From the NCBI GenBank assembly GCA_026419775.2, contig JAOPGA020000868.1, forward strand, positions 1 through 53,715: a DNA stretch of 53,715 nt. The letters are read 5' to 3'. The notes beneath the pieces are model-generated. The model did not search any database. It was not told the DNA's origin and saw only the letters and a program-made list of their open reading frames with translations. Position numbers and translations under genes: made by a program. Of this stretch, positions 10,040 through 53,715 are shown in pieces. Within the stretch, counting starts at the first letter, position 1, and every line of letters starts with the position of its first letter. This DNA is from Acrasis kona (lineage: Eukaryota > Heterolobosea > Eutetramitea > Acrasida > Acrasidae).

Positions 10040-10376
10040 AACAAAAAGAACAAAAAGTTCGCTAGGTTTGGTGGATCCAGAGGTTTTAATGAGCCGTGGA
10101 ATAGTACTTTTTAATTTAATCACTTTAAATGGCCTCGGCCTAAATAAACACTTTTTAATTTAAAGCATTGTAGATCAACTCTCTACCTTGTCGGTAATGC
10201 TTTTGAACTTTGCCTAAAAATTTTGAAAATTAAAAGTGTGTATGGTTTTCCTTCACATGATGTTCATTTTTTATTACAAATTTAGACGATCATAACCACA
10301 AAATTAAGACATGTTTTTTTGCCATCACACAGCCCAGAATAAAGTCGGGGGAGGAAAGTTGACTCCGCATTCTTTT

Positions 10377-11921
10377 ATGAAACTTTTAATCACAATCTTG
10401 TTATTGTGCGTCATGACTTCAGCAAGACCACGGATATTATTCTCTGGATCCAGTGGAAATACGGCGAATATTGTGCTAATACAAATTGCAAGGGTGGTCA
10501 ATAGCAATCAAGACTATCAACTATCTTTCGGTACTTTCGATGAATTCAAAACAAAAGTGGATAGTTTAGGGACACATGTAAGGTTTATTGACTATGGTAA
10601 AAATCCGTCTCATATCCCAGTGGAATTAGCCAAAGCTATAGCAGTAGAAACCACATTTTATAAAAGCATGGCAAACATCACATCCATCCTACTTCGAACA
10701 TACGAACCAACTTTTAAGGCTTTAGAGCCCATATTTAAGGACCCAAGCACACGACCCCATGTGCTTGTTTCTGATTATTTCGACTTGGCAGGACCTGACT
10801 TGGCAGATCATTATTCAGTGCCTGTTGTGATTGTTAAAAGCAACGCACAATTAGATTTTGGTGGCTTCTTTGAAATGCCGAGGGATCTACCGGACAGAAC
10901 GCTCGGACATGGACTACAAGACATGAAGAATTTTAAAAAGAGACTTTGGCAGACCATCGCACCTGCATGGTACATGACTGGTTACATGATTCCCATATGG
11001 ATGAGATATGACCAACTAAGCAACCTTCGAAGACGTTTTGGAATTAATGTTGGCGAGGCCAAGCCATTTGGATCTCTGGACGACCGTATCGTGATCTGCT
11101 GCACTTCATTTGGGTTTGAGTATGCCAGGCCCATCAGCACGTACACTCACCTGGTAGGTCTGTTACACGAACCATACGATCCATCCACTCACATTAAGCA
11201 ACAAGACATGGGCCTGATGAATTGGTTGGACCAATCAGAACAAATCGTTGTTTATGTTTCATTTGGAACCCTTGTCAGACCTCTTGATTGGCACTTGGAG
11301 AATCTGGTCAGAGGAGTGTTGATGAATAGTTCTGCCAGAGTGTTAATCGCAACAACGAGTCAACATGATGCAAGCTTGCTACAAGACATTGATGCTTCGA
11401 GGGTGAGGATTGAACCTTGGGTCAACCAACAAATGGTGCTACATCATGCACGCACAAGAGTTTTCATTTCACACGGAGGAGGACAATCCATCGCAGAAGG
11501 TTTATCCTGTGGAATGCCAATGTTGATTTTACCGTTCATGAGCGATCAGCTTCCTAATGCCATCCGTCTGTTTGAGATGGGTGCTGGTTTGTATTTGAAT
11601 AAGGCTGACTTTACTGCCCAAGAAGTGTATGAAAAGATGATGCGGTTGTTGAATGAGGATGGGTTCAGGGAGAGATCAAAACATTTGTACAGCGTTAGTT
11701 TGACTTACGGACATGAACGGAGAGCGGCGGAGATTGTTGTGAATACGTTGGAGGTTGGAGAGGAACACTTGAAACCGTTTGATCATGATTTTACATTTTT
11801 GCAAAAGTATAATTTGGATGTTCATTTGTTGATAGGGTGTGCCATGAGTGTCTTGACCTTTTCTGCGAGATTGGTTATCACAAAGATTGGAAAGAAGTTG
11901 TTCGGGTTGATCAAAAAATAA
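10377..11921 (+). CDS. UDP-glycosyltransferase (GT1 family), ER type with C-terminal anchor
   Basis: Transfers a sugar from a UDP-sugar to a small acceptor. The ATG at 10377 opens directly into a signal peptide (MKLLITILLLCVMTSA); an in-frame ATG at 10311 would add 22 polar residues and is less likely. The 514-residue length is usual for eukaryotic UGTs. The UGT donor-binding signature is in the C-terminal half: FISHGGGQSIAEGLSCGMP followed by LPFMSDQLPNA. VSFGTLVRP is the conserved strand before it, and WVNQQMVLHH is the usual lead-in. A final hydrophobic helix ends in GLIKK, a dilysine-like tail fitting ER retention, as in animal UGTs. Acceptor unknown. No intron seen. Confidence 0.88.
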   Translation: MKLLITILLLCVMTSARPRILFSGSSGNTANIVLIQIARVVNSNQDYQLSFGTFDEFKTKVDSLGTHVRFIDYGKNPSHIPVELAKAIAVETTFYKSMANITSILLRTYEPTFKALEPIFKDPSTRPHVLVSDYFDLAGPDLADHYSVPVVIVKSNAQLDFGGFFEMPRDLPDRTLGHGLQDMKNFKKRLWQTIAPAWYMTGYMIPIWMRYDQLSNLRRRFGINVGEAKPFGSLDDRIVICCTSFGFEYARPISTYTHLVGLLHEPYDPSTHIKQQDMGLMNWLDQSEQIVVYVSFGTLVRPLDWHLENLVRGVLMNSSARVLIATTSQHDASLLQDIDASRVRIEPWVNQQMVLHHARTRVFISHGGGQSIAEGLSCGMPMLILPFMSDQLPNAIRLFEMGAGLYLNKADFTAQEVYEKMMRLLNEDGFRERSKHLYSVSLTYGHERRAAEIVVNTLEVGEEHLKPFDHDFTFLQKYNLDVHLLIGCAMSVLTFSARLVITKIGKKLFGLIKK

Positions 11922-14570: not shown

Positions 14571-16241
14571 TTATTTTACAGTCTTCATAATAACATATGT
14601 AACTCGATCAGGTTCTACTTTGTATAGTTCTTGCATCTCATCATGCAATTTAATAGCCTGTTTGTGCATCTTATTGCGAACAAGACCAGATATCATACAA
14701 TTGAAGGTTACCACGTCTGGCGTCAATCCATTCTTTATCAACAATTGAAATGTGCGGTTGCCATCATCGAACCTACCTTCCCTGAATAACGCATTAAGAA
14801 TTGAATTCATCGAACTCAAATCAGTATTCTCCCCACACTGCTTAATTGCACCGTCCAAGTCACCAGCGTCGCACAATTCTTTTATTGTTCGTTTGTTCAC
14901 ATTTACATGATTTTTCTCCTCAATAGTATCCGTGTGAGCCCTTTCTAACCCAAGTTCGGAGTATGCCTGTTCCCTCATGTCTTCCTCCACATCTTGGTCA
15001 TCCAAAAACTTCTTCGCGCAAGATGCAAGAGTATCACTCACTTCAAGTCCTCTTGATCTCATTTCCCTCACAAGCCACATGCCAGCATGGTAGTAAGATT
15101 TACTAAAACACCGTTCTACCAAAACAGAATACAATAGTACGGAGTCTTTTGATACACCCTTTATGGCGTCACCGAAAATAGCATCGACTTGGGATGGAAC
15201 TACATTTTCCAATGGTATCATGTTACAGAACAACTCAAACATAATTACATCAGAAGCGTAGGGTGCGATAGCAGCACCCAGTTGACAAAGCTCCTCAAAA
15301 GAAGAATGTTTACAATTTTTAACAGCAAAACACATTACATGTTGTGGAACAGAACCAGTAGAATCTATTTCTTTTATTTGACTCATAATTTCGGTAGGGT
15401 CTAATTCTCCAAAATCAACTTTAATATCATACGGTTCCTCCGACTTGCCATCACCAGCAGTCAATACCTGCTTTTCTTTACCAAAGTGACCAGACACCAC
15501 CGCATCGAACGTTACCATAGGAGGTTTGTTTCCACTATCATTCAGCTGGTTGAACACATGCCTTGCAGAATCCATGTCCCTCACATTTATATATGCCTCC
15601 ATCATCATTGAATACAAATTAAACTTTTTGTCTTGAGAGTCAATGATGTCAAATAATTTTTGAGCATCAAAAAGTCGTCGTGATGCAATTAGCGAACGAA
15701 GCAGCCTCTTCACCGAATTGATCTTGGTGCTGATTTTATGGTTTTGTGAATGTAGGATTAATAGTAGCTCGAAGGCTCGCTCCTGCTGATGTGCTTTAAT
15801 TAATGCACCTAAAGAAACATTTAAAATATCTGGCTGGATCTCGGATCCGCAAAGCGAAGCTTGTGTTATTACGTCGCAAACGACATCGAGTTGATCTTTA
15901 TCAATTAAATTATTTACTTTATCAAATAAATAGTGTTGAAATGGGTATCCATCCATTAAACGGTATCGTTCGCGAACAGTGGTTGATGTGTTCTGATTAA
16001 TGGACAATTGTTCTGGTTTGACAATGTGCTGTGATATTGAAGAATAACGATCAACCATTGCCTTAATCTCCTTCTTTTTTCTATTATATTCTAATCTTCT
16101 CTCATCCTCTGAAAGTGGAGTAGGGCGTACAAATTCTTCGTAAAAGTCGTAGGAATTCGGTTCATTTGTGACGTATGTTCTACTAAGCTGCCTACTGAGG
16201 CGAGCTAACTTTGTTATACGTGAACATGCTCGTTCCATCAT
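14571..16241 (-). CDS. Pentatricopeptide-repeat protein, probably mitochondrial
   Basis: A 556-residue protein. The N-terminus MMERACSRITKLARLSRQLS is arginine-rich without acids, like a mitochondrial presequence. Helical repeats with PPR spacing run through the middle (SMMMEAYINVRDMDSARHVF) and are clearest at the C-terminus, where residues about 480-556 give two units with the F-x-x-L-I-x-x-G-L-x-P-D-V-V-T-F-N pattern followed by RVTYVIMK. PPR proteins bind organellar RNA for processing, stability or translation. Target RNA unknown. Start is the first of two tandem ATGs at 16241. No intron. Confidence 0.82.
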   Translation of the reverse strand: MMERACSRITKLARLSRQLSRTYVTNEPNSYDFYEEFVRPTPLSEDERRLEYNRKKKEIKAMVDRYSSISQHIVKPEQLSINQNTSTTVRERYRLMDGYPFQHYLFDKVNNLIDKDQLDVVCDVITQASLCGSEIQPDILNVSLGALIKAHQQERAFELLLILHSQNHKISTKINSVKRLLRSLIASRRLFDAQKLFDIIDSQDKKFNLYSMMMEAYINVRDMDSARHVFNQLNDSGNKPPMVTFDAVVSGHFGKEKQVLTAGDGKSEEPYDIKVDFGELDPTEIMSQIKEIDSTGSVPQHVMCFAVKNCKHSSFEELCQLGAAIAPYASDVIMFELFCNMIPLENVVPSQVDAIFGDAIKGVSKDSVLLYSVLVERCFSKSYYHAGMWLVREMRSRGLEVSDTLASCAKKFLDDQDVEEDMREQAYSELGLERAHTDTIEEKNHVNVNKRTIKELCDAGDLDGAIKQCGENTDLSSMNSILNALFREGRFDDGNRTFQLLIKNGLTPDVVTFNCMISGLVRNKMHKQAIKLHDEMQELYKVEPDRVTYVIMKTVK

Positions 16242-23616: not shown

Positions 23617-26600
23617 TTATTTTTCGCAGCTATAAACTCGATACAGAGCGAGTACCTCTTCTTGTAGCTTCTTCCAAACATCAAGAGATTCTTCACCCCT
23701 CATCAAATGTCCCATCATTATTTCAAAGCACTCCCGTTGCTGGTTTGTCAAAACTGATGCACTGCCAGCAGGATCGGTGCATACTTCATCAATTCTCAAC
23801 AAATGTTCGAAGTTGTGAGCAATCTGTTTTGCTCTTTGAACAATAGAAATGGGTATGCCAGCTTTACTGGCTACGCTCAGTCCATAACTAGCTGGAGAAA
23901 CACCAGGTATAAATTTGTACAAGAATGTGACGTCGAATGGACGGTTTGGGTCGTCCATAACCTGCATCTGATACAAGGAAACGTATGGATTGTACATGAG
24001 TTGATTTGTAAGATGAAAATAATGAGTGCTAAACAGAGTTCTACATTGTATCACTTCGGACAAGTACCGGAGGGTAGCATAGGCGATGCTAAAGCCATCA
24101 AATGTACTGGTACCTCTACCTAGTTCATCAAGAATCACAAGAGAGTTACACGTGGCATTTCGGAGAATGTTGGAAGTCTCAGTGAGCTCCACCATGAAGG
24201 TACTTTGACCGGTCATGATGCGATCGCTGGCACCAACTCTGGTGAATATTCGATCTACTGCAGTCATACGACAACTAGTAGCTGGTATTCTACAACCTAA
24301 CTGTGCCATTATAACTGCAACCGCATTTTGACGCAACAAGGTGCTCTTGCCACCAGCGTTCGCTCCAGTTACAACTATACACAAAGGATTAGAAGGAGAC
24401 GGGCCAAGAAGAGTACTATTTGGAACGAATGGATTTTGATCAGTATTAACACACGGATGAGACATTTCGACCAGATCTAAAAAAGGTTCTGGTTGATCAA
24501 CAAATTCAACCTTGCACATTCCATTATTCATGGAGGTACGAGTCAGGCTCAATAAACAATCTAGTTCAGCAATACAAGACATACATCTGTTCCAAGATTC
24601 ATAATCATCGTCGAACACTTTCATGATGCGACGGAGTTCTCCCCTCAACACAATGTCTCTCTTTTCTTTGGCTTGTTGATGAAGAGGCATCAATCTGATC
24701 ACTTCTGGGGAATGATATCTCTCTACTTGACTTGTTTGACTGACAAGAACCCAACTCTTTGGCACTTTTGTATTTTTGGGAACTTGTATCTGGAATGGTT
24801 TTCTTTGGAGCATTTTGTAAGTGCAATCTTTGGTTGACAGCTTTAGAGTTTTAATGTTGTGAGACAAGTGTTGGTCGAGCTCCGATTGAATGGACTCCAA
24901 GTGAGCGTTGGCTTTGTCAAAATCAGGATTTGCTCCTTGACAAGGCAGGATGTGACCGTCCTGCCTTGCCAATTGATGGTCGAACATTGTTTCAAATTTT
25001 GTTAACAACGGTTGGAGATCGGGAAAACCAAAGGAGTTGTTCTTGTCCATAGGGACCACTTGAACAACATTCAACAGCACTTTATTAGTCACCAGTCCAT
25101 CACGGATCAAGTGTTGAATATTATTTATTGCATCGAAATAAATTTTTAAACACTGAAGAGTATCAAGAAGCAAGATGACACGTTTCTTGTTCAAAGTAAC
25201 ATCAAACATGATCTCATCGCTCTTTACACATGTTTGAGCGTGGATTCTAGATAAATTACGTTCCAGATCACCAGTCACCCTTGGTATAATGTTTTCGAAA
25301 TGCTCAAAGTTCATTTCAATTTGGTCCACTGCTCCTATTCGGTTCGAAATGTCGAACTGATGACGCAGTGGATGACATACCCAGTATCGGAACAATCTCC
25401 TTCCGGATGGAGTGCTACACTTGTCCAAGTACTCCAACAGGGATCCCTTAATGCCATTATCCTTACTGCTAAGAATTTCCAAATTAATTAACGTCTGTCC
25501 GTCCAATGTTAAGTGACTTGAATCATGTGTAATGTCATACGAACGTATGTTGGCCATGGTTAGCGTCTCTTCGTCTAGTCTTAGTTCATATAAATAGTTT
25601 ACCAAAGTGCCAAAAGCGCTCATCACCAGATCATCGTCCTTGTAGGCAGATAATACGGGCGGTAGTTCTTTAAAATAACCTCTGGCCTCGATTTGATTTA
25701 ATGTGTCTGATCGATTCCAGGTTGACTGGCGTGGATTCAGCACAGGTTTACAAAAACTAACGCCACACATGACATTTAACAGATTCTTTGTCAGAGAACC
25801 ACGCCCAAAAATAATTTCTTTGGGAGATATTTGTTGAACAAGTGTTTCTAATCCAGAGCCACAAAAATCATCATTTATTCTACCAATGTTGAATTCTGCA
25901 GTGCTTGTATCAGCAAAGCATATGCCCAGGTTGTTCTTGTCTTGTACCACGCACAATAGATAATGGTTGGTGTGAATGTTGGAGATCATGTCTTGGTCAA
26001 CGAGGGTACCTGCGGTATAAATCTGCCTGACCTCTCTCCTGACTACATTATCTTGAGGACCAATTTTCTTTTGTAATCTAATCTTGAGTTCCTCCGGAGT
26101 TTCCATTTGTTCTACCCTGGCTACCTTGTAGCCGTTTGCAACAAATTTACTGGCCCAATGTTTGAAGGAAGATTCGGGGACCCCAACCATCCTCATGTTG
26201 ACCCTCTCCGTCAAATGTAGATCGAAATCATTCTTTCCAATGTCTGCATCCTGTGGTGATTAGTGTTTGAATGATGGTAATGCTTACAGTTTCGTACAGG
26301 GCATAAAATGCACCCATTTTATAAAAGAAGATGGTGTCGAATAGATTCTTCTTCAACCTCCAGTATTGTCTGTCGTAAGCTGGCATGTTGTTGTAGGCAT
26401 TTTCAGGGATGTGAAAAGAGTTGATGGATTGTAATCTTCGTGACCCTTTGGTATCCCTGCTGCATCTTTCACATCTTCCAACCAATAATATCTCTCAGCG
26501 TTTGGCTTTGAATTTGTTCGCTTCGGGCTTGATTTCTTTGGTGTACTTTTCAAAGGGGTGCTTTTTTGTTTTTTACGGGTTGGTGTGGTTGGGGCACTTT

Positions 26601-30695: not shown

Positions 30696-33568
30696 ATGAG
30701 AAATAATAGCGGTTGTGAAATACTCTTCGTTCTTCTGCTTTGCTGCCTGTTGATCAAGGCAAGACTACCATCGTCGGGGAACGAAGGTTTCAAAAAACAA
30801 AATTTCATTCACATAAGGTCAGGATCTATTGGAGCAGATAGTGAGCACTTGTTGGACGTTAACTCACGTAAGTGTTCTACTTTATCAACAAGAATAACTT
30901 CGTAGTTGCATCTATAAATGAGGAAAAAATCCAAGTATTGATTAAATTTGCTCCAGTGTACGAGACACAATTTGGAAAAACAAGTTTCAAATATTTAACT
31001 GAAGAATACAAGAAGAAGATCAGGGAGGAATTTGGAATCAAGTTATCCTCTTACATTCCTCACCATTCATACATTGCCGTGGCTACTCCAGAACAGATTA
31101 GCAAAATTTCAGCACATGAACATGTCGACTTTGTGGCACACTACAAACCACACATGAAGGTGTCCACCCTCGAGCACAAGGACATCAACGAACACATGAA
31201 AGAGACAGCATCCATTTCTGCATCTCTCGTGCCAGATCAAGAGCGCACCTTAAGAGACGCGGAGCAAATCAAAGATCAAATCAAGTCCATCCTCGACAAC
31301 AACAACATTCCCCATCAACACCTCCTTGCTGCATCAAAGAACAAGATCATTGCCGTGGTGCACAAACAACACTTTGCACAAGCAGCAAAGGCACTATCCA
31401 CGCACGTGCAAGTTCATTGGATCGAACAACACGACGTACATGCCCAACCAGAGAATGCATTCAATCGTAAATTGATACAAACCAACAAACAACAATCAGA
31501 ACCATACTCCATCGCCGGTCTCAAGGGCAAAGGACAAGTCGTCGCCTATGGTGATTCCGGTCTCGACGTCTACAGCTGCTTCTTCCACGATCAAGACCAT
31601 CGCGTTCCCTTTGTGAATGCCAAAAATCTCACGTCCCATCTCAGCCCCCATCATCGTAAAATTCGCGGCTACTACACATTCATAGACGACAAGGACGATC
31701 TATTGGGACACGGCACTCACGTGGGTGGAACGTTGGCAGGACAAAGTTTGTACAATGGAAGCAACACGTTTAACGGAATCGCACAGGAGGCCAAAATCTT
31801 CATGTTCGACGTTGGGTGCAGCACCAAAGGTGGATGTAAATGCGAACAAGAAGGAAACGTGTGTCCATGCACCATGCTACCCAACGGCGTGTGTCCAGAG
31901 AATGGAGGGTTGTTCATGCCCAACGATCTGGAGAATAGCGGTTACTTTATGGCGCCCTATCTAGCAGGCGCTCGTCTGCACTCCAATTCCATCGGAGATC
32001 GCATCGAACAAGGATACACCACCACCAGCAAGGAAATCGATTCCTTCGTGTACCATCACGACGACATGTTGATCTTGTGGTCAGCAGGTAACAGCGGAAG
32101 GAACGATGGTTACATGACGCTGACAGGTCCCTTGAAGGAATTCAAGAATGGCATCGTCGTGGGTGCGAGCACCAGCAGCAGAGAGAGTTGGGATTGGTTG
32201 GTGAGCGACGTAGGAGTGCGCAACCTTACGGATAGTTTGTTGAGCTTAAAAGCTAGTATTTATAATGAGTTCCAATGCTTTTGCACCAATCACACGTTGA
32301 ATCCACAAATGTGTGCTGCTGCGGAGAGATTGGTGGACGAGAAATCATGTTGCCAGCTATTCGGTGCACCCGATTGCAATGGATTCAAACCCAAATCATG
32401 GGCCACCAATCCCATGGCAGCGGTCATCAGCGGATGTTGTCATGAATGCGTGCGCAAGGCTCTACAAGATCCATCCGTAGCTCAATACTTTGACTATCAA
32501 AACTTGGCCAGCTTTAGTAGCTTAGGTCCCACCATCGACGGTCGCATCAAACCAGATTTGGTGACGCCTGGTTACTATGTCATCTCTGCTAGAAGTCACG
32601 CCAGCGATCCATCCGTCACTTGCGATGGCAACAGAGAGCTATCTCATCATGTCAAGGAGATGGCAGGCACCAGCATGGCCACGCCGACGGCCACCGCAAG
32701 CGCAGTGTTGGTGAGACAATACTTTACCGATGGTTATTATCCCAGCGGACGTGCTCATGGCGAAGGTGCCAAGTACACCCAACCAAGTGCTGCGCTGGTC
32801 AAGGCCACCATGATATCCAGTGCCAGACCCATGAGCGGCATTGCTCGCTTCGCAGATCGCTTCTCCTTCTTCCAACCTGCTCACAGGCGCTTCTTTGAAG
32901 GATTCGGTCTCATCAACTTGTCCAACGTGTTGAACGTTCATGATGCACCATCTCCTCCTCTGTTCGTGAGCGACGGCAACACCGTGGCGACCGACCAGGA
33001 CGATTCTTATGAATTCGAATTCACTTGTAAACAAGATGTCAAGTGCGAATTGGTGGTGACGTTGACGTGGACCGATCCACCTTCGTCGCCCGCTGCTTCC
33101 TTCTCTCTGATCAATGATTTGGACTTGACCGTTTATCATGGACAGGACGGCAGTTCGTTCTTGAGAGGAAACGTGATCGACGGATCCATGCATGACAAGG
33201 ATCACTTTAATAATGTGGAGAGAGTGTTGTTTGCGGTGGGCGCAGAGGAGCACGCCAACAGCGGTGTTTATCGAGTGGTGGTGTCCGGCTACAACGTTCC
33301 ACAGGGTCCACAAAAGTATGCACTGGTGATTAGTGCCAGCGAGAATGGATTCGACAGGGAATTAGTCGAGAAATCATTCTTGACTACGCACGGAGGTCAT
33401 GGACACGATGATCCGTCACGTGACTTTTTTAAGAGAGATATTACCATGAAGGTTTGGGGCTTCTCTTTGTTGGTTGGTTTGATGGGTGCTGCGTTGTTGG
33501 CGTCGGTGGTTGCGTTGGGTGCCGTCACAATCAAGAACAAGAGATCGTCGTATCAAACAATAAATTGA
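30696..33568 (+). CDS. Subtilisin-like serine protease, type I membrane protein
   Basis: Exon 1 30696-30867, intron 30868-30905 (38 nt), exon 2 30906-33568; 944 residues. Signal peptide ILFVLLLCCLLIKA near the N-terminus, a pro-region to about residue 260, then an S8 catalytic domain with Asp274 (AYGDSGLD), His329 (GHGTHVGG) and Ser647 (AGTSMATPTA). Two cysteine-rich inserts occur in the domain (CKCEQEGNVCPC and a CxCC... group near 530-600). A beta-sandwich follows (LVVTLTWTDPPSSPA). The protein ends with one membrane span (LLVGLMGAALLASVVALGAV) and a short basic tail. Architecture resembles the protease half of Dictyostelium TagB/TagC, without the ABC transporter. G+C and codon choice are clearly higher than in its neighbours, typical of a highly expressed gene. 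Confidence 0.9.
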
Positions 33569-36688: not shown

Positions 36689-38152
36689 CTAATTTATTGA
36701 ATATCTTCCCTTGAGCACCTTTCCTGTTGGATTTTCAATCACATCACCTTCACGTGTGAAAACTACGACACCTCTCAAAATAGTCATATTAACAACACCC
36801 TTCAACGCCCTTCCATCATATGGTGTAAGTGGATGCTTGTGATGAAACATTCTCTTCTTTCTGGCATCGAGCACGTATGATTCATCTGGGCTCCAGATCA
36901 CAAAATCAGCATCAAGGCCCTTTCGTATGGTGCCCTTGCGATCGTGGATTTGTACCAACTTGGCAGGTTCTTCACATTTCCACTTTACTAAATCACTAAA
37001 AGTAAATCCTCTTATCGATGCCTGTGTCCACAGTGCAGACAAAGATAATTCCAAAGAAGAGATGCCACCCCATGATTTGAAGAAATCGTTGTTTTTTAAA
37101 TCTGGAGGACTAGGGGAGTGGTCGGACGTGACCATACTAAGTACGCCACTGCGTAGTCCGTTCCACAAACCTTCTCTATTAGCAGCAGTGCGGATGGGTG
37201 GACAGCACTTGTATTGGGTGGCACCATCAGGAATACTTTCGGACGTAAAAAACAAATAATGTGTACAGGTTTCGCTGGAGACACCATCCATCTCACTAAG
37301 AGCCTCATCAGTTGCAACGTGAACAATATGACAGCGAGTGAGTTTATCTTTACAAAGCTCGACTACCTTACGAATAGCTTCGACCTCCATTCTGGGTGGT
37401 CTAGACTTCATAAATGTTGCATAGTGTGAACCATTTCCATTTTTTATTAAATCTTGAATTTCTTGTTCTAACTCCAAAACTTCAACCTCGGCATGGAACA
37501 TGTAAACAATGTCGTGATCTTTGAGAATGTTCAAAGCAGTTTCAATGTGAGATTCATCCACGGCACCAAATTCTTGGACTCCGGAATTAATCATGAATGA
37601 CTTGAAACCTAAAACTCCTGCATTTAACAATGGCAAAAGATCGTTCTTGTTCTCTGGTACAACCCCACCTAAAAAGCCAACATCGACGAACGTTTGATTC
37701 ACAGAAGTCTTCATCTTGATGTCCAAGTTTTCTACAGTAGTTGTTGGTGGTAATGAGTTTAAAGGCATGTCGATGACGGTGGTAACACCACCAGCTGCTG
37801 CACCCTTAGTAACTGTTAAAAAGCCCTCCCAATGAGTGCGTCCAGGATCGTTGACGTGAACATGTGTATCGACCATTCCAGGCATTACTATATCATCTCC
37901 AGTATTGATAATACGTTGGCATCCATGTAAGTCGTAGTAGTCGGCGATCTTTTCAATCTTGCCATCTGCGCCAACATGAATAGTGCCAGATATTGGAATC
38001 AAATCTTTTGAATCTCTAATCATTCTCTTCGCCTGAATAATTAAGCATCCCTCATTAGGTTGTGAAGTTGTTGGTGGTTCTACGGGTGGCGTGGCGATGA
38101 AGTACACTGCAAGTAAACTTGCCAAAGAGATCAATATCGAAATTTTTATCAT
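36689..38152 (-). CDS. Allantoinase with N-terminal signal anchor
   Basis: Hydrolyses allantoin to allantoate in purine degradation. A 487-residue cyclic amidohydrolase. Metal ligands are all present: H97 and H99 (DTHVHVND), K184 (VLGFKSFM, the carbamylated lysine), H220 (YMFHAE), H278 (CHIVHVA) and D344 (VTSDHSP). TTVIDMPLNSLPPTTTVEN is the allantoinase rather than dihydroorotase or hydantoinase signature. Residues 3-22 form a hydrophobic segment (SILISLASLLAVYFIA) followed by a proline linker, so the enzyme is probably in the ER/secretory lumen or bound to a membrane, as in plant allantoinases. No intron. Start at the first ATG. Confidence 0.9.
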   Translation of the reverse strand: MIKISILISLASLLAVYFIATPPVEPPTTSQPNEGCLIIQAKRMIRDSKDLIPISGTIHVGADGKIEKIADYYDLHGCQRIINTGDDIVMPGMVDTHVHVNDPGRTHWEGFLTVTKGAAAGGVTTVIDMPLNSLPPTTTVENLDIKMKTSVNQTFVDVGFLGGVVPENKNDLLPLLNAGVLGFKSFMINSGVQEFGAVDESHIETALNILKDHDIVYMFHAEVEVLELEQEIQDLIKNGNGSHYATFMKSRPPRMEVEAIRKVVELCKDKLTRCHIVHVATDEALSEMDGVSSETCTHYLFFTSESIPDGATQYKCCPPIRTAANREGLWNGLRSGVLSMVTSDHSPSPPDLKNNDFFKSWGGISSLELSLSALWTQASIRGFTFSDLVKWKCEEPAKLVQIHDRKGTIRKGLDADFVIWSPDESYVLDARKKRMFHHKHPLTPYDGRALKGVVNMTILRGVVVFTREGDVIENPTGKVLKGRYSIN

Positions 38153-38262: not shown

Positions 38263-39977
38263 ATGAGGTCCAAGAACATTCTGTTCAATTTGAGGCAATA
38301 CACAACTGGAAATCTCGTCATGAACAGTAGGATAATAAAAGGAAATCCTAACCAAGATGAGGTAATTGTCAAAGAAGGATATCGGTTTATAAAACCTTTT
38401 GAAAGGAAGTATGAAGTTAAATGTAAGGGTAGATGGATGGGGAGAAAACTTCTAGACACATACATGTATGAATACACCGTACCTGAAGACGTTTGCGTGA
38501 GTGTTTGTGAAGTTATTGAAATTAACATGCACAGAAGGACATGATAAAAAAAGGACTAATCAAGGTGAACGACGAAATCAAGAGCGAAGATTACATCTTC
38601 ACAGGGACAGAAGTTCTTCAATATAGCGACATTCGGACTGACAGGGCCGTCATCAATTTTGACCAAATAGAAGTAATTCACGAAGATGATCTATTCTTCG
38701 TGATTAATAAGCCCCAATCAATACCAGTGCACCCAAAAGGAAGGTACACCAAGAACACTTTGACGTACATTATAAAAAACGAGTATGGCATGTCGGGGTT
38801 AAGACTTTTACATCGCTTAGACAAGGTCACTTCAGGAGTGTTGCTGTTCGGCAAAACAACGCCAGTGGCTCAAACATTCACCAGGCTAATGGGCACCAAT
38901 CAGGTCAAAAAGTTTTATCTTGCCAGAGTCACGGGAAGATTCCCACACGATCAAGACGAGCCGCCGTGGCAGAATGATCCAGAAATACATTACGATAAGG
39001 AACACGGAGTGTGGCACGTCACCAAGTCCCTTCAATGTGTGAACGAGAGAAGAGGAATTTATAGGGCCATTGACAATAATCAGCTCATCCCCGTACAAGA
39101 ACAGGTTTTGACCGACTTGACAGGATCCACCGTAGCAGAAAAATACAAAACGGCTCATACATTATTTAGGTTCCTCGGATATGATGCACAAAGCAACACG
39201 TCGCTCATGTTTTGTGCACCCATCACAGGTCGCACCCATCAACTCAGGGAGCACTTGCGCGTATTAGGACATCAAATCGTTCACGACGACGAACACTTGG
39301 TACAAGACTTGACGGACACACAAAGAGGAGTGCATGGTTGGAGGCACAAGATGGAAATATTCGAAAGGCTTGGATGGAACAACAAGGACATCATAGAGCA
39401 CATGAACGACGAAAACATTAACGAATTCTTGGAAAAGAAGAGGGACGGAGAGTTGATTCACGGAGAGTTTAAAATCGATCTGCACGCATTCCACTACTGC
39501 ATCAAACTAAACAAGACGGACACGTTGGACATGATGGGACTGAGAAAGCGACCAAGAAACATTAGCGAAGGAAAGTTAAAAAAGTATCAAGAAAAGTCGA
39601 GAAAGCGTCAAAAAAAGATTGAAGCCAGAGAGAAGGCCATTAGCTTGGGTCAGATGGTGATGAAGAAGGATTTAAAGAGCGACGAAAAGTATCAGGCCTA
39701 TTTGGAAAAGGTCAAATTGCAACAAGAGCAGGATCGTGCTCATTTAGAATTAGTGGAAAAGAAGATACAACAAGTGGGAGAGGTGCCCGAGGAGAGCATG
39801 ATGGATTTTGAAACAAGAGTATTGCCAGAGTGGTGCGCTGCATTTCAGGGCGAAGAGTTTACAAAAGTGTTGAGAGAGTGCGTGGAGCACAGCAAACAAT
39901 ATGCTTACAAGCATAATCACGAGGATGATGGTGTCCAGGAGGTGGATCAAATAGACGAGGGTGAGGTTGATGAATAA
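38263..39977 (+). CDS. RluA-family pseudouridine synthase with charged C-terminal extension
   Basis: Exon 1 38263-38496, intron 38497-38534 (38 nt), exon 2 38535-39977; 558 residues. Isomerises uridine to pseudouridine in RNA. An S4-like segment lies at residues about 65-105 (KKGLIKVNDEIKSEDYIF). The catalytic region has VINKPQSIPVHPKGRYT and LLHRLDKVTSGVLLFGKT, the R-L-D-x-x-T-S-G motif holding the catalytic aspartate. APITGRTHQLREHLRVLGH is the R-T-H-Q-L-R-x-H motif. Similarity is closest to eukaryotic Pus9/RPUSD2-type enzymes that act on tRNA position 32. The last ~200 residues (about 355 on) are Lys/Glu-rich coiled coil absent from bacterial relatives. The first ~20 residues may be a mitochondrial leader. 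Confidence 0.88.
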
Positions 39978-46754: not shown

Positions 46755-48030
46755 ATGGCAATCAAAAAGACATCCACCATTCAAACAAAGAACTTTAGCT
46801 ACAAAAAGTTATCTCAAACAATAACAACTTTGTTAACAAATGTAAACAATAAATTGGGAGTAAGAGCAGTCGAGGACATTGTCAAGTTGCTTGTACAGTG
46901 CAACAAAAAGCGATTACACACAATAAGCAACGCAGTTCTTCAAGGAGCTTACAGTGTTAGCGGCGATGATCCTGAAACATTAACAGTCCTTAAAAAGCTG
47001 GGTGACCAAGATATGGAGGTTGGATCTAACCTTGAAGATTTCATGGGTCACGTGTGTGATCTTGTACATAACTCAAAATCGAAAAAGAGATCATCAAAAA
47101 AAAACAAGACAAAGAGGACGAAGAAGAGGAAGAGGAGGATAAAGAAGAGGAGGACAAGGACGAGTCGGAAGAAAAAAATCCCAAGGTTGACGTAGAGGCA
47201 GAAAACAAAAAGAATGCAATTAAGATATTGCAGACACGCATAACAGCACCATTTAACCAGGTTAGTGTTGATGCTTACAATGCTGGAGAATTTCTTTCCA
47301 AATTACAATCAGTAAGCAGTACAACATTATGTGAAGATGGTGGATGCGACAGTCTTGCGTTGGGATATGTTCAATTGTGCTCTCAACATCAAATCGCTAG
47401 TAAAAGCACTCTTCAATCTGACATTATGATTGGTGCATACTACAATGCCATTAAAAATGTCGGCGAAAAAAAAGACTCGTTGAACCCAAATCCAACAGCT
47501 GACGACAAGATCAAGACTATGCTCTTGTTATTTTGTTCATGGAGGAGATGCTACCAAGACTACATTAAAAACAACAATGTAGAAGTTAGCTCCAAAGTCA
47601 AAAAANCATTGGATTTGGGTGATGAAGAATTGCTTACCCTTCAACTCCATGAAATCCAACACATGATCGCAGGCTGCTCAAGCAGTACATTTTACAGGAA
47701 AATTCAATTATATGAGTTTGCAGTAAAATATCCATATGTGTTGAATCTTTCTTTGCCGACAAAACATTTGTTTAACCATATACCCATGTTGGTTAAAATC
47801 CTTGAGGAGGATTCAGAGGACGGAAGACTTTACAAAGCGATATGGTCAAATTACAATCAACCTACTAGGAACACAACACCATCATCCGAGGATCAAAAAT
47901 CTGATGAAGGTACGTTTTTATTGTGTCAGATTCATTTACATGNCAAGTTAAACTTTTTCAATTTGTGGATACTCAAAAATCTATTAAGCATCTTGAGTAC
48001 AATTACTTTGAAGTTGGGTTTGGGTATTGA
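46755..48030 (+). CDS. Charged protein of unknown family; -1 frameshift at A AAA AAC needed
   Basis: Frame 1 runs 46755-47195 and would end in a very basic stretch (KRTKKRKRRIKKRRT). A -1 shift at the heptamer 47099-47105 (A AAA AAC) enters a frame reading an acidic linker (QDKEDEEEEEEDKEEEDKDE) and continuing through the rest. A 38-nt intron at 47910-47947 (GTACGT...CAAG, one N) and last exon 47948-48030 end the protein; with the -1 shift all phases close at 412 residues. N bases at 47606 and 47943. The N-terminal part is helical (LSQTITTLLTNVNNKLGVRA); the C-terminal part has SDIMIGAYYNAIKN. No known domain. A single-base omission in the A9 run would explain the break equally well. A decayed paralogue lies at 44.1-44.7 kb. 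Confidence 0.6.
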
Positions 48031-48179
48031 CTAAAGGGGTTAGAGGTATAAAAATGTCATGGTTGACCGTAGAGACATTTTGAAAACATTTTCGGAATCA
48101 GCGTCGAATTTTGATTATAATGAAATAGTTTTATTTTTTTTAAATTAGTGTCAAAATCTGTGTTTAACAAAAGTGATTT

Positions 48180-48575
48180 TAGCTAAATTGAACATTGATT
48201 GGTAGGTCACGTAGTGGCCGTACAATCAATGTGAGGTAATGTAATGGTTTGCTAAAGTTATAACTAGATTGAACATTGGTAGAGAGGTCACGAAGTGGCC
48301 GAGCTACCAATGTGAAGTAATATAAAAATTTAAAGTAAAATATAGCTAGATTGAACATTGGTAGAGAGGTCACGAAGTGGCCGAGCTACCAATGTGAAAT
48401 AATACAAAAGTTAATTAAAAATTTATAGCTAGATTGAACATTGGTAGAAAGGTCACGAAGTGGCCGAGCTACCAATGTGAAGTAATACAAAGGTTAGTTA
48501 AAAATATATAGCTAGATTGAACATTGGTAGAGAGGTCACGAAGTGGCCGAGCTACCAATGTGAAGTAACTAATGT
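48180..48575. repeat. Array of five ~83-bp units, each with a 41-bp hairpin
   Basis: Hairpins at 48192-48232, 48273-48313, 48355-48395, 48438-48478 and 48521-48561; starts are 81, 82, 83 and 83 bp apart. Each has outer arms ACATTGGTAG / CTACCAATGT and an inner stem GGTCAC-GAA-GTGGCC. In the first, diverged unit the arms changed together (ACATTGATTG / CAATCAATGT), keeping the pairing. Spacers are A+T rich and also similar (ending TAGCTAGATTGA). Between the frameshift gene and the recombinase gene. Confidence 0.92.
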
Positions 48576-48885
48576 GAGATATTGTTAAAATAATAAAAGA
48601 AGTAGATTTGGTATTATGTATCTAGTTTTATTTATGTTATAATCAGGCTTGACTTAGTTGGCAGATACTAGTTTTCAATGTTTCAAAGGTCCTAGGTTCA
48701 ATATTTTCTAACAAAATTATTTTGAAAAAAAAACAATTCCATTATATATTATAATATAGAAAATATATTGTAAAACTAGGGTTGATTAGTAAAGTTGACC
48801 AAAATTCAAATCTCTACATTGAAAACAAAGTTAAAAAAACAAAGTTAGACCCTCTAGTATACAAAGTCACTAAAGTTCAATCAAA
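48576..48885. other. Leader region of the recombinase gene
   Basis: 310 bp, strongly A+T rich, no gene. Contains TATATATTATAATATAGAAA near 48745 and short AAAGTT/AAGTTGAC repeats near 48795-48875; the promoter and 5' UTR of the downstream gene are expected here. Confidence 0.35.
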
Positions 48886-51729
48886 ATGAGTTTCTCTCCA
48901 GTTTCAAGTACAAAGTTGTCCAAATCCCAAATGAACGTTCAATCATTGTCAAGGTCTATTGTTTCTCCAAATGCTTCTCAAGTTCCAATTATTGTTATCG
49001 ATGATAGCGATGATGATATTGAAGTATTTGTCGCTGCAACAAAGACATCCTCTAATCAAGTAATTAAAAGAAGTATTATTTATAGCCCTTCATCACCGTT
49101 ATCACCACTATTGCCTTCACCACCCTCAACACCTAAATCACCACTATTTCCCTTATTACCCGTAACACCATTATCGCCACTATCGCCTCAAGCACCACTA
49201 TCGCCCGCAACACCATTATCTCCCTTATTACCCGCAACACTATTATCACCATTATTGCCACTATCGCCTCAAGCACCATTATCACCCTCATCACCCGCAA
49301 CATCATTATCACCACTGTCACCTTTACTACCCTCATCGCCTCAAGCACCACTATCACCCTTATCGCCCGCAACATCATTATCACCACTATCGCCTGCAAC
49401 ACCATTATCACCTTCATCACCTATAACACTACAATCATCAACCATATCAAAATCTTTACCTCAAAAAAGAAAGATAACCACCCTTTCTTCAAGTCAAAAA
49501 AAGAAAGCTATTGTGCGCCCTATTGATGATGAGGACCGTGACGATGAAGACACTGATATTTTGGGAGAATTTCGAACTCATTTCAACCCTAATGATAGAT
49601 CTCGGAATGCAATTCAAATAGAACAAGTTAATCAAAGGGTAATGAGCACAAATAATATGAATATTGCTGAATTCAAACCTGATACTCTCGTAAATACTGT
49701 CGTATCAAATGAATCAGTTTATCAAGTATATTCTGAAAGGCTTGAAACGCCTATTATGTCTAATTTTGGTGGAGGTCGACAAACTAGGAAACATACCCCA
49801 AATGATAATGATTTTAAAGCAATCTCATTAGCAAAATACCCTGTTAATCTTTGGTCCACAAAGATTGTTAGTACAGCAAAACAAAGTGAGGACGATTTAT
49901 ATCCACAATTTCGATTATTTTGTCATTCAAATTACCAAAATAACAAATGGATAAATGATCAAGAAATTTGTGATACTTTCGACGAGGATAACGACAACCA
50001 TTATTTATTAAACTCTTGGCTACAATATATTCAATCATATCAATATTTAAAAAATATTAATAATATATTAAATGTTGGTTATGACGGTATGATTAGCGAA
50101 TTATATATGACTGCCCCTGACAAAGCCACTAATCCACTACCTGTTCGCCCCGCTGACCTTAAAAATAATGTTGAATTTAGATATTTTATGAATGATAAAG
50201 AATACACAATCTATCATTTTGGTAAACAAATTAATAGTGTCGATATTATTTGTAAAGATATTATTTCATTTCTAAGAACTTATTCCAAACAAAGTATAAT
50301 AGTTGTTAAAGAGTATGGTGTTCCTTATTATATCGATACTGGTAAGGCAAGTGGTGCTTTACAACACGATTTGTCTATTATGTCGTCATTTATATCATGG
50401 GCATTTTCTTCAACCGGTTATCCTGTACCAGCCAATAGAAATAATAGACCCAGATTAGTATTATATTTTAAAACTGATAATTTAATTAATTATTTCAATG
50501 TGCATTTAGTTAATTTAGTAAGAGATAAAGTTAAAAACTCATCTCTAATATCTAGTATTGTAACTGTATTTAACAAGTTATTAAAAATGTTACAAGAGTA
50601 TTATGAGTCAAAAGGCTGGCCAGATTATACAACCGTTCAACAAGATGCAGCTAAAGCTACCATTAAAAGGTCTATACTTTGGCTTAAAAATCATAATAAG
50701 AAATGTCGTATTCATCATGGTGTATTCGTTAATTATAGCAAACGAATAGTTTTTTTGAAACAATATAATTTGTATTTGTCAATCGAGGACTTTGATAAAG
50801 TATCAAAAGCAATCAAAGATAGAATTACTTTCTTAGAAGTATTATGGCTTAGTATTCCTATTGTTAACAGAGAGAAAGTGTGGTCTATAATGGGGTATTA
50901 TATCGAAGAAGGTCAGTTATGGTGTACATACTTTCACATTCAATTATATGGCATCAGACCTGCATCACTCTTACAAGTTACAAAAGATCGTGTATATTTT
51001 AAAGTTGTGAACTCGCCACATGATTTAGCCAAGAATTATCTTTTGGCAGTGCCTCATTTATTATCACTTGGTGATGAAAAGAGTCCGTATGATGTTACTA
51101 ATAGACATTTGTCTATGGGTACTGATCTAATTCGACAATGGGCATTATATTTAGCCAACAAGCATCCAGTAATTGTTAATTTAATTTTGAAAAGAAATCC
51201 TAATTTAAGTCGCGAAGTTGTTGAAAATCAATTATGGTTTTCGAAAAAGGGTTCAATAATGAACAAAGACATGTTGAGAGACAACATCAAACGACATTGG
51301 GGATCTTTAACTGGGGTATACACTACTCCCAGGTTGATTAGATTTCAACTCGGTCATTATGCGTTTGAAACTACTCAAGGCTCTCATGCTGCAATGTTAC
51401 ATGTTTGTTACATGATGAATCATTCTTTAGGAACACATTTAAAATATTACGTTAGATCGGATACTAAAAGTGATAGAAATACTGCCGATGATCAAAATAT
51501 TATTACAAATATGTTGCAAGGTAAAACTCTTCCTGATGCTAGCGGTAATAGACAAAATATCATTAGCGTTCAACAAAAATTAGATGCTAAAGAAAGAGCG
51601 GCACAAGGCATAGAAGAAGAGGAACATGATAGTAATGACGATAATGAGGAAGATGATGGTGATGAAGAATACAACCCTTTAGCTTTAAATAGATTTCATA
51701 ACATGTTGTCTGAAAATAATAACGAATAA
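48886..51729 (+). CDS. Tyrosine recombinase-like protein, Crypton-like, with Pro-rich repeat region
   Basis: A 947-residue intact frame. Residues 30-60 contain VPIIVIDDSDDDIEVFV, a SUMO-interaction-like motif. About 68-185 is a degenerate SPLSPLLPATPL repeat encoded by a minisatellite. Basic stretches near 195-213 (QKRKI, QKKKAIVR) look like a nuclear signal. The C-terminal third has tyrosine-recombinase features: R691 in YGIRPASLLQV (box I), R816-L-I-R819 (box II, H-x-x-R variant), H846 and Y854/Y855 in MMNHSLGTHLKYYV. H846 to Y855 is 9 residues, as in lambda Int (333 to 342), and R819 to H846 is 27 versus 22. No reverse transcriptase is nearby, which fits Cryptons better than DIRS elements. 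The tail is acidic. Codons are more A+T rich than in the core genes. Confidence 0.7.
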   Translation: MSFSPVSSTKLSKSQMNVQSLSRSIVSPNASQVPIIVIDDSDDDIEVFVAATKTSSNQVIKRSIIYSPSSPLSPLLPSPPSTPKSPLFPLLPVTPLSPLSPQAPLSPATPLSPLLPATLLSPLLPLSPQAPLSPSSPATSLSPLSPLLPSSPQAPLSPLSPATSLSPLSPATPLSPSSPITLQSSTISKSLPQKRKITTLSSSQKKKAIVRPIDDEDRDDEDTDILGEFRTHFNPNDRSRNAIQIEQVNQRVMSTNNMNIAEFKPDTLVNTVVSNESVYQVYSERLETPIMSNFGGGRQTRKHTPNDNDFKAISLAKYPVNLWSTKIVSTAKQSEDDLYPQFRLFCHSNYQNNKWINDQEICDTFDEDNDNHYLLNSWLQYIQSYQYLKNINNILNVGYDGMISELYMTAPDKATNPLPVRPADLKNNVEFRYFMNDKEYTIYHFGKQINSVDIICKDIISFLRTYSKQSIIVVKEYGVPYYIDTGKASGALQHDLSIMSSFISWAFSSTGYPVPANRNNRPRLVLYFKTDNLINYFNVHLVNLVRDKVKNSSLISSIVTVFNKLLKMLQEYYESKGWPDYTTVQQDAAKATIKRSILWLKNHNKKCRIHHGVFVNYSKRIVFLKQYNLYLSIEDFDKVSKAIKDRITFLEVLWLSIPIVNREKVWSIMGYYIEEGQLWCTYFHIQLYGIRPASLLQVTKDRVYFKVVNSPHDLAKNYLLAVPHLLSLGDEKSPYDVTNRHLSMGTDLIRQWALYLANKHPVIVNLILKRNPNLSREVVENQLWFSKKGSIMNKDMLRDNIKRHWGSLTGVYTTPRLIRFQLGHYAFETTQGSHAAMLHVCYMMNHSLGTHLKYYVRSDTKSDRNTADDQNIITNMLQGKTLPDASGNRQNIISVQQKLDAKERAAQGIEEEEHDSNDDNEEDDGDEEYNPLALNRFHNMLSENNNE

Positions 51730-51948
51730 ATTTGTTTCCTTTTTTTCATTTTTGTTCATCTTTTACAGAATCGGTCGAGTTTGAGTTACTTAATGTAATT
51801 TCCTGTAAATTGTTTTACTCTATATTGTGTCTCATGGTATTTATTAGCTAATTATATTATTACATTGTCTAGGAAAATACATAATTGTATATTAAAAGAC
51901 GAGAAGGTAACTAAATGTGATTTGATTAGAAATTGTTAAAATTATAAT
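51730..51948. other. 3' region of the recombinase gene
   Basis: A+T-rich sequence with no open frame or repeat that I can see, before the diverged repeats begin. Confidence 0.3.
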
Positions 51949-52440
51949 CGGTTTTAAACGATTCGATTTTTTATGCCGATTCTAACGCTTGTCTTGGATT
52001 TGATAGCGTGTCATTATTGACCGAGAAGGGGTTCTAATTTGAATTGATTTATAATTAATTAAATGATCTTCGGTTTTATATGGTTCAATTTTTTATGTTA
52101 ATTGTGATAGTGAACTCAGATTTGTCATTGCGTCGTTATTGACCAAGAATGTGTCATGATTTGAAAAAATTTGAATTAATCTAAATTGAATAACAACTTA
52201 TTTGGTCTTATATGAATCGATTTTTCATGCTGATTGCAACGGTGAACTCAGATTTGACATTGAGTCATTATTGAATAAGAATTTGTCATTTTACATTTTG
52301 TATCCAAATAAGGATGCCACGTTGTGGGACCAATAGAAAAATAGCAAATTACAAAAATTGATATATGATCTGATTTTTTGTGCTGCCTCCAACGCTTGTT
52401 TCAGATTTGACAGCGCATCATTAATACTATGCGCGCTTTA
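51949..52440. repeat. Four diverged tandem copies of a ~122-155 bp unit
   Basis: Copies start near 51949, 52071, 52203 and 52358. Shared blocks are CGGTTTTA...GATTCGATTTTTTATGC, then AACGCTTGT...GATTTGACAGCG and TCATTATTGACC. Identity is low and spacing varies, unlike the 257-bp repeats that follow, so this is an older array. Confidence 0.6.
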
Positions 52441-52559: not shown

Positions 52560-53715
52560 CACAGGGTGCCTTATAATGTATCGAATACAGCTTTAAAGTC
52601 GAGATAGTCCAAGGTAGTGTTGTAGTCAACTCAGGTTGGGGACCAAGAATCAAGCCCCATTTAAATGTTCCAAATGACCTCATACTTGACTGTGATGTGC
52701 CCCATAGTGTATTGAATACAGTTTTGTAGTCGAAAGTAATGTACTCACTTGTAGCGGTCAACATGCGCCTGATGCATTTTTCCATCCCATGCAACATTTA
52801 AAACTATCCGTTTTGCTTCAAAATCGCACGCTGTACTGGTTAGACAGTATGTAAACGTGTACTTACTTTGTTTTTGAAAAAAGTCAAAATTAATGGGGAC
52901 CAAGAATCAAGCCCAATTTAACTACTCCAAATGACTTCATATTTGACTGTAAGGTGCCTCATAATGTACCGAACACAGTTCTGTGTGTCGAAAGTGATGT
53001 GCTTCTTCTAGCGGTCAACTTGTGCCTGATGCATTTTTCCATGCCATGCAACATTTAAAAGCATCCGTTTTGCTTCAAAATCACACGCTGTACTCGTTAG
53101 ACAGTATATAAACGTGTACTTACATTATTTTTAGAAAAAGTCAAAATTAATGGGGACCAAGAATCAAGCCCAATTTAACTACTCTAAATGACTTTATATT
53201 TGACTGTAAGGTGCCTCATAGTGTACCGAACACAGTTCTGTGTGTCGAAAGTGATGTGTTTCTTCTAGCGGTCAACCCGCGCCCGATGCATCTTTCCATC
53301 CCATGCAACATTTAAAAGTATCCGTTTGGCTTCAAAATCGCACGCTATACTCGTTAGATAGTATGTGAACGTGTACTTACATTATTTTCGGAAAAAGTTG
53401 AAATTAATGGGGCCCAAGAATCAAGCCCAATTTAATTGTTCCAAATGACTTCATATTTGACTGTAAGGTGCCTCATAGTATATCGAACACAGTTTTATGT
53501 GTCGAAAGTGATGTGTTTCTTCTAGCGGTCAACTTGTGCCTGATGCATTTTTCCATCCCATGCAACATTTAAAAGCATCCGTTTATCTTCAAAATCGCAC
53601 GTGGTGCTCGTTAGATAGTATATGAACGTATACTTACATTATTTTTGGAAAATGTCGAAATTAATGGGGCCCAAGAATCAAGCCCAATTTAATTGTTCCA
53701 AATGACCTCATATTT
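52560..53715. repeat. 257-bp satellite, over four copies, continuing past the window
   Basis: The block GGGG(A/C)CCAAGAATCAAGCCC starts at 52638, 52895, 53152, 53409 and 53666: spacing exactly 257 bp each time. The later copies are highly similar, with scattered substitutions and almost no length changes; the first is the most diverged. A partial unit precedes from about 52568 (GGTGCCTTATAATGTA). Shared blocks include CGAAAGTGATGTG, AGCGGTCAAC and CATGCAACATTTAAAA. No coding potential. Could be centromeric, subtelomeric or an element-derived array. Confidence 0.95.

Follow-up and report, generated by a model that had tools for sequence, protein, structure and literature searches.

The window analysed here is a stretch of 53,715 bp from Acrasis kona (contig JAOPGA020000868.1, positions 1 to 53,715 of the forward strand). 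Its right end is taken up by a repeated block that begins at short TTTGGG units, carries a hairpin array and a gene for a tyrosine-recombinase-like protein, and continues through satellites to the contig end. We tentatively read this block as a tyrosine-recombinase DNA element resident at chromosome ends, with telomere-unit ends and deletion derivatives. Contigs of the same genome are denoted by C-numbers, C422 being the contig of the window. The block and its left edge comprise the following features.

47228 to 48034, + strand: truncated repeated gene of the left flank, its last codons running through the telomere units (LGLGID); from the open reading frame (ORF) and sequence.
48014 to 48024, + strand: left edge of the block, TTGGGTTTGGG, about one to two telomere units, where the truncated repeated gene stops; copies agree rightward and differ leftward of it.
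48014 to 48159, + strand: left terminal region, common to blocks lacking the recombinase gene (about 96% for C323, C647, C374 and C488; about 80% for C816 and C628).
48178 to 48578, + strand: array of five units of about 83 bp, each with a 41-bp hairpin; from repeat finding, RNA and DNA folding and a genome pattern search.
48192-48232, 48273-48313, 48355-48395, 48438-48478 and 48521-48561, + strand: hairpins 1 to 5, imperfect palindromes of 41 bp each.
48886 to 51729, + strand: recombinase-like gene of 947 codons, from the ORF list and translation; a second copy lies on C1006.
49084 to 49434, + strand: repeats rich in Pro, Ser and Leu, covering about residues 67 to 183 of the protein; from direct repeats and translation.
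50563 to 51570, + strand: C-terminal region compared with tyrosine recombinases by motif, paralogue and profile.
50956-50958, 51340-51342, 51421-51423 and 51448-51450, + strand: codons of R691, R819, H846 and Y855.
51914 to 52423, + strand: satellite with a period of about 122 to 153 bp, also present in blocks lacking the recombinase gene; from repeat families.
52637 to 53715, + strand: 257-bp satellite reaching the contig end, also found near the ends of other contigs; from repeat families.

The gene-bearing block is present at two places in the genome. From window position 48017 to the window end, C422 and C1006 show 3 differences in 5699 bases (99.95% identity), while their left flanks differ. 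The C1006 copy lies in reverse orientation and its block extends from 2204 to about 10130 (about 7.9 kb), from TTTGGG to TTTGGG. Neither GGGTTTGGG nor TTTGGGTTT occurs inside it, and it is followed by GGGTTGGGTTTGGG and another satellite block. The possibility that the C1006 copy is a haplotype or duplicate contig was rejected, as the left flanks differ and six further loci have the same edge. The repeated gene truncated at the window's left edge is unbroken in C475, C412 and C37 (98% identical), where it reads TTGAAGTT-ATCAAG; at the window it reads TTGAAGTT-GGGTTTGGGTATTGAC.

Six shorter blocks without hairpins or recombinase gene have the same left end, namely those in C323, C647, C374, C488, C816 and C628. 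In the first four, the equivalent of window position 48159 is followed within a few bases by the satellite that starts at window position 51923. Seven of the eight left edges have readable flanks, all of which differ; at the eighth, in C816, the start of the contig truncates the flank. TTTGGG stands at 7 of the 8 edges. At the other side, the last 130 bp or so of the C1006 block are homologous to the right ends of the short blocks in C374, C647, C488, C628 and C816, as well as to the end of C267. The blocks of C374, C647, C488 and C628 continue into a TTTGGG tract at the contig end. The short block of C816 has TTTGGG on both sides, adjoins an open frame present once in the genome, and is oriented opposite to what is expected of a chromosome end. 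The long C1006 block and the short gene-less blocks thus have homologous ends, as would be the case for autonomous and deletion-derivative copies. Another scenario that was considered and rejected is that a short block received a 3.7-kb cassette (48160 to about 51900) by clean insertion. No target duplication is present at the joint, and loss from the long form is therefore at least as likely as insertion.

Several lines suggest that TTTGGG is the telomere unit of this genome. Three tandem copies of TTAGGG are absent from the genome, while three tandem copies of TTTGGG occur 45 times on one strand and 71 times on the other; the reversed control for this pattern search is uninformative, since reversal only shifts the phase of the repeat. 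The matches listed fall on 16 contigs. Minus-strand TTTGGG lies near the contig start in C88, C229, C353, C374, C628, C647 and C652, and plus-strand TTTGGG near the contig end in C186, C317, C330, C436, C488 and C837. The G-rich strand points outward in 13 of 13 checkable contigs, C393, C587 and C609 lying outside this check. Judging from these contig ends, TTTGGG probably serves as the telomere repeat. Telomeres of this type are treated in the literature (PMC7367193, PMC12134996; all papers are cited here from excerpts). In C374, C488, C647, C317 and C88, the terminal TTTGGG tracts pass into TTGG and then into long TG repeats, which may be the real end structure or an assembly artefact.

The proposed element rests on a fixed left end, a homologous right end, edge units of telomere type, long and short forms, private hairpins and near-identical copies at two places. 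In its behaviour, with fixed TTTGGG-bounded ends, several chromosome ends occupied, and long and short forms, the block corresponds to a telomere-resident element, with TTTGGG as the presumed telomere unit and with movement not observed. The preliminary description had proposed a mobile, Crypton-like system, without reference to the telomere-repeat junction at 48014-48024. Of this, a repeated and probably mobile block with a private hairpin array is retained, and membership of the Cryptons is not, as no profile match was obtained.

A number of observations tell against movement driven by the recombinase. The left edge of C488 shows only TTTGTG, and all left telomere tracts are short (about 8-12 bp). 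The right end of C1006 is about 30 bp shorter than the others, and that of the window copy lies off the contig. Neither a circle nor a clean target duplication nor an empty TTTGGG site was seen. Furthermore, a satellite block without a recombinase gene starts at TTTGGG in C837, C1006, C968, C419 and C628; at its start in C104 and C689, no more than GGGTTGACCCC is visible. Behind a near-identical flank (97% over 398 bp), C1006 and C419 carry different blocks, and in C88 this flank is cut about 100 bp earlier and capped by TTTGGG. Since recombinase-less blocks start at TTTGGG and one flank is joined to different blocks, a general host process is enough to account for the junctions. TTTGGG also lies directly on other sequence in C353, C229 and C330, and on cut satellite in C186. 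Such arrangements show apparent healing and exchange at TTTGGG to be general in the genome, which weakens a mechanism specific to the recombinase.

These junctions support a second explanation, almost as likely as recombinase-driven movement, in which the recombinase plays no part. Its gene, perhaps an old Crypton-like insertion, would lie inside a subtelomeric repeat spread by the host, comparable to the Y' elements of yeast. Broken ends healed with TTTGGG would copy the distal block from another end through break-induced replication. For the telomeric retrotransposons of the fungus Magnaporthe (MoTeRs), healing and break-induced replication of this kind have been shown (PMC7367193). Host spread alone leaves three observations unexplained, the first being the exclusive tie of the hairpins to the recombinase gene and the second the C816 block, which lies within a contig and is flanked by TTTGGG on either side. 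The third is the occurrence of two recombinase families in such blocks. The second family (C968, C205) also begins at TTTGGG, where both copies start to agree; the C968 block starts with GGGTTTGGGTTTCTGCAAACC, and C205 agrees from that point with a single TTTGGG. The C968 gene reads towards the following satellite, and telomere units at the start of the next block encode the final LGLG of its frame. Two unrelated frames (window 47228-48034; L012 541-2631) end in such telomere-coded LGLG, as genes that were cut and capped by TTTGGG.

The recombinase-like gene is a single intact frame of 947 codons, as described at first, and R691, R819, H846 and Y855 are found at the residues to which a tyrosine-recombinase spacing was then ascribed. 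The catalytic set R...[H/K]xxR...H/W...Y is present in the C-terminal domain as R691, R816-x-x-R819, H846 and Y855, both in the window protein and in its paralogue on C968. The Pro-rich repeats are confirmed as a direct repeat in 9-bp phase, and another motif of the protein presumably resembles SUMO-interaction motifs. Reverse transcriptase, RNase H and methylase domains are absent from the protein by Pfam, in agreement with the earlier account. The reverse transcriptase and RNase H frames expected of the kinetoplastid telomere-associated tyrosine-recombinase (YR) elements (TATEs) or of the DIRS order are likewise missing from the second copy's contig stretch, C1006:1-9999, which holds no further ORF of more than 95 codons (ORFs of at least 80 amino acids listed).

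The genome contains paralogues on C1006 (the near-identical copy), C968 (696 amino acids, open), C389 (663 amino acids, open) and C205 (interrupted). A search with C968 further detects decayed fragments in C86 and C405, along with a weak one in C527. C968 is about 25% identical to the window protein and retains all four residues, comprising the box I arginine, R-x-x-R, NHS and a tyrosine nine residues past the histidine. In the intact C389 paralogue (G000:C389:40885-42876; L013 4886-6877), Q replaces R691 and the catalytic tyrosine is missing. Within 10 kb it has no subtelomeric sequence in common with the other compared loci. With these losses, this paralogue could fit a candidate domesticated recombinase gene, for which a single copy at a fixed place without the catalytic residues would be expected; its neighbour we take to be a CAP-like secreted protein. 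Domestication had also been considered for the window gene, which it does not fit, as the catalytic residues are kept and two near-identical copies have different left flanks. The C205 relative is broken by about 1.2 kb (L014 4987-6198) holding a 341-amino-acid frame that appears RNase H- or retroelement-like by eye.

The assignment of the protein to the tyrosine recombinases has to be weighed against another possibility, namely that it is some other protein, DNA-binding or not, in which R...R...H...Y occurs by chance. This would agree with the outcome of the database searches. The preliminary description had suggested a hidden Markov model search against tyrosine-recombinase and Crypton profiles; the protein is not recognised by any of the family libraries. 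A known recombinase came up neither there nor in searches of the PDB and of protein sequences. Pfam, NCBIfam and PHROGs gave no accepted match, with only weak sub-cut-off matches in Pfam and NCBIfam (best 14.3 bits, ORF28) and neither GCR1_C nor DUF3504 in Pfam. The PDB sequence search returned two matches, both on the low-complexity N-terminal part, and the PDB profile search was empty. Homologue searches with residues 290-890 or the three-paralogue alignment as query yielded nothing at thresholds, and viral contigs gave no match (one of eight scans). Genome-wide, Phage_integrase (PF00589) matches 64 places, and the recombinase-like locus is not among them. Several of these places lie inside frames of 600-977 codons; tyrosine recombinases have therefore expanded in this genome apart from the family of the window protein. 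The fungal marker family Chitin_synth_1N had no match in the genome, which carries no information since 14 control genomes lacked one too. Two AlphaFold predictions were of low confidence and unusable (mean pLDDT 32.4 and 40.7), and a fold search on the second returned unrelated proteins without a significant match (best E 0.78), a result that was disregarded. A loose four-residue pattern also arises in 291 and 111 of 20,000 single-sequence shuffles.

A chance pattern is nevertheless improbable in view of the conserved context. The surroundings of box I and box II are kept between paralogues that are only about 25% identical, and the box-II signature stands at the same columns in the window protein and C968, which 0 of 20,000 column shuffles preserve. 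An hhalign comparison set the C-terminal regions of the three paralogues against aligned sequences of XerD, Cre, lambda Int, FimB and FimE together with seven relatives of lambda Int. When the window protein leads, the score is 22.8 (P 0.029, probability 1.7%) and is reached by 0 of 300 column-shuffled versions (best shuffle 21.5). In this unsupervised alignment R819, H846 and Y855 fall onto the R, H and Y of XerD, and R691 falls outside the aligned stretch. The alignment led by C968 has an identical register. Less favourable are the scores with C968 leading (17.6, equalled by 14 of 300 shuffles) and with C389 leading (18.6, equalled by 7 of 300). Motif context, conservation and a weak profile match suggest the term 'tyrosine recombinase', the recombinase fold remaining putative. 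The original reading is thereby supported for a C-terminal region of recombinase type, without a match to any recombinase profile.

Upstream of the gene, the five regularly spaced 41-bp palindromes of the preliminary description are indeed present. They are spaced by 81, 82, 83 and 83 bp, and the last ends 324 bp before the ATG (325 bp in the original claim). In each hairpin, an outer stem of 10 bp leads through a 3x3 internal loop to an inner stem of 6 bp, which contains a constant U-G (T-G) pair and is closed by a 3-nt loop. All five fold better than 200 of 200 dinucleotide shuffles, both as RNA (z -5.5 to -7.8) and as DNA (z -4.6 to -6.2). Across the five hairpins, 80 of 80 cells of the 16-pair stem are filled. 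Compensatory changes are found at 2 pairs, both distinguishing unit 1 from units 2-5, and 17 of 500 shuffles reach that number; support from covariation is modest because units 2-5 are nearly the same. Within 48017-48885, Rfam gave nothing at E up to 1, and nothing in the whole window at gathering scores.

A pattern search of the genome (37.35 Mb, at most 2 mismatches) found 10 hairpins, five beside each of the two gene copies, and 0 in the reversed control. Looking for further copies with upstream hairpins had been suggested, and C1006 is the only one that was found. The surroundings of the paralogues contain no repeats resembling the hairpins. An interpretation as classical recombinase core sites is not borne out by the dimensions. 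Such sites are built from 11-13 bp arms that enclose a spacer of 6-8 bp (PMC3212892), whereas in duplex DNA the outer arms of the hairpins measure 10 bp and are separated by 21 bp, and the inner arms measure 6 bp, are separated by 3 bp and contain a fixed T/G mismatch. By analogy only, the hairpins may be recognised as a folded strand, like integron attC sites, or as RNA.

The presence, within a single block, of palindromes and telomere repeats next to a recombinase-like protein also brings to mind an enzyme that acts on hairpins or telomere DNA for the host or the element, for example by resolving or joining ends, as protelomerases do. This is highly unlikely here. The gene and the hairpins were found in two copies only and other contig ends carry TTTGGG without them, so that they are not needed at most ends. 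In addition, the position of the hairpins is 0.2-0.55 kb into the block from its inner edge and not at the tip.

The element shares features with several described systems. Cryptons likewise have a single recombinase gene, no reverse transcriptase and no inverted ends. Their terminal direct repeats of 4-6 bp (6 bp in fungal Cryptons), proposed as crossover sites, are comparable with the TTTGGG of the window element (PMC3212892). TTTGGG stands on both sides of the C1006 copy, of which about 30 bp of the right end are missing, and of the C816 short block, but may be host telomere. The window element differs from Cryptons in lacking a recombinase profile match and GCR1_C, and in having telomere-repeat edges, satellites and a hairpin array. 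TATEs also have a tyrosine recombinase and lie in telomere hexamer repeats in tandem clusters, but they carry a Gag-like frame and reverse transcriptase/RNase H frames, none of which is seen in the window element (PMC6681497). Endogenous nimaviruses possess telomere-specific tyrosine recombinases tied to integration into telomere repeats; they are, however, large viral genomes, and their recombinases are placed apart from those of Cryptons and DIRS (PMC10871703). MoTeRs resemble the window element in their TTTGGG-type ends, in a short form with both ends of the long form, and in short interstitial telomere tracts with break and healing, whereas MoTeR1 encodes a reverse transcriptase in place of a recombinase-like gene (PMC7367193). 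Integron integrases, compared by analogy only, are tyrosine recombinases acting on imperfect, single-strand-folded attC hairpins, but no gene cassettes lie between the hairpins of the window.

The excerpts of PMC3212892, PMC6681497, PMC10871703, PMC12506042 and PMC8647823 contain no description of a telomere-specific Crypton. As far as the excerpts on Cryptons, TATEs, nimaviruses and MoTeRs go, in none of these systems does a recombinase-only gene occur together with telomere-unit ends, short derivatives and a hairpin array. The window element is therefore classed with telomere-resident elements and not as a Crypton.

If the chromosome-end element is mobilised by its own recombinase, the protein would form a circle joined at the 6-bp unit TTTGGG. 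This circle would be inserted into telomere repeats, similar to the proposed use of 4-6 bp terminal direct repeats by Cryptons. Once at an end, blocks might also lose sequence, acquire new TTTGGG by healing and spread to other ends through the telomere recombination of the host. The hairpins could act as a site for binding or control by the recombinase, recognised as a folded strand or within the transcript, which is the least certain step. A broader proposal, which we regard as rather doubtful, is that the block represents a new group of recombinase-only transposons for telomeres. TTTGGG would then be the crossover repeat, insertion would add an end block, short derivatives would ride along, and the hairpin array would be a recognition or switch site.

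The telomere-specific elements known to us are mostly retrotransposons. A small recombinase-only element with telomere-unit ends would, if real, provide a simple system for the use of telomere DNA by a site-specific recombinase and for asking how chromosome ends gain, lose and swap blocks. It would also test whether a eukaryotic recombinase uses folded hairpins like integron integrases. Even with the recombinase gene as a passenger, the locus documents how telomeres are healed and blocks exchanged in a genome whose end repeat, TTTGGG, is unusual.

To the left of the block, the window carries ordinary genes by Pfam. They encode a UDP-glycosyltransferase (10311-11918), a pentatricopeptide repeat (PPR) protein (14574-16241), a MutS family protein (23620-26214), a subtilase (30872-33565), an amidohydrolase (36692-38152) and a pseudouridine synthase (38541-39974).

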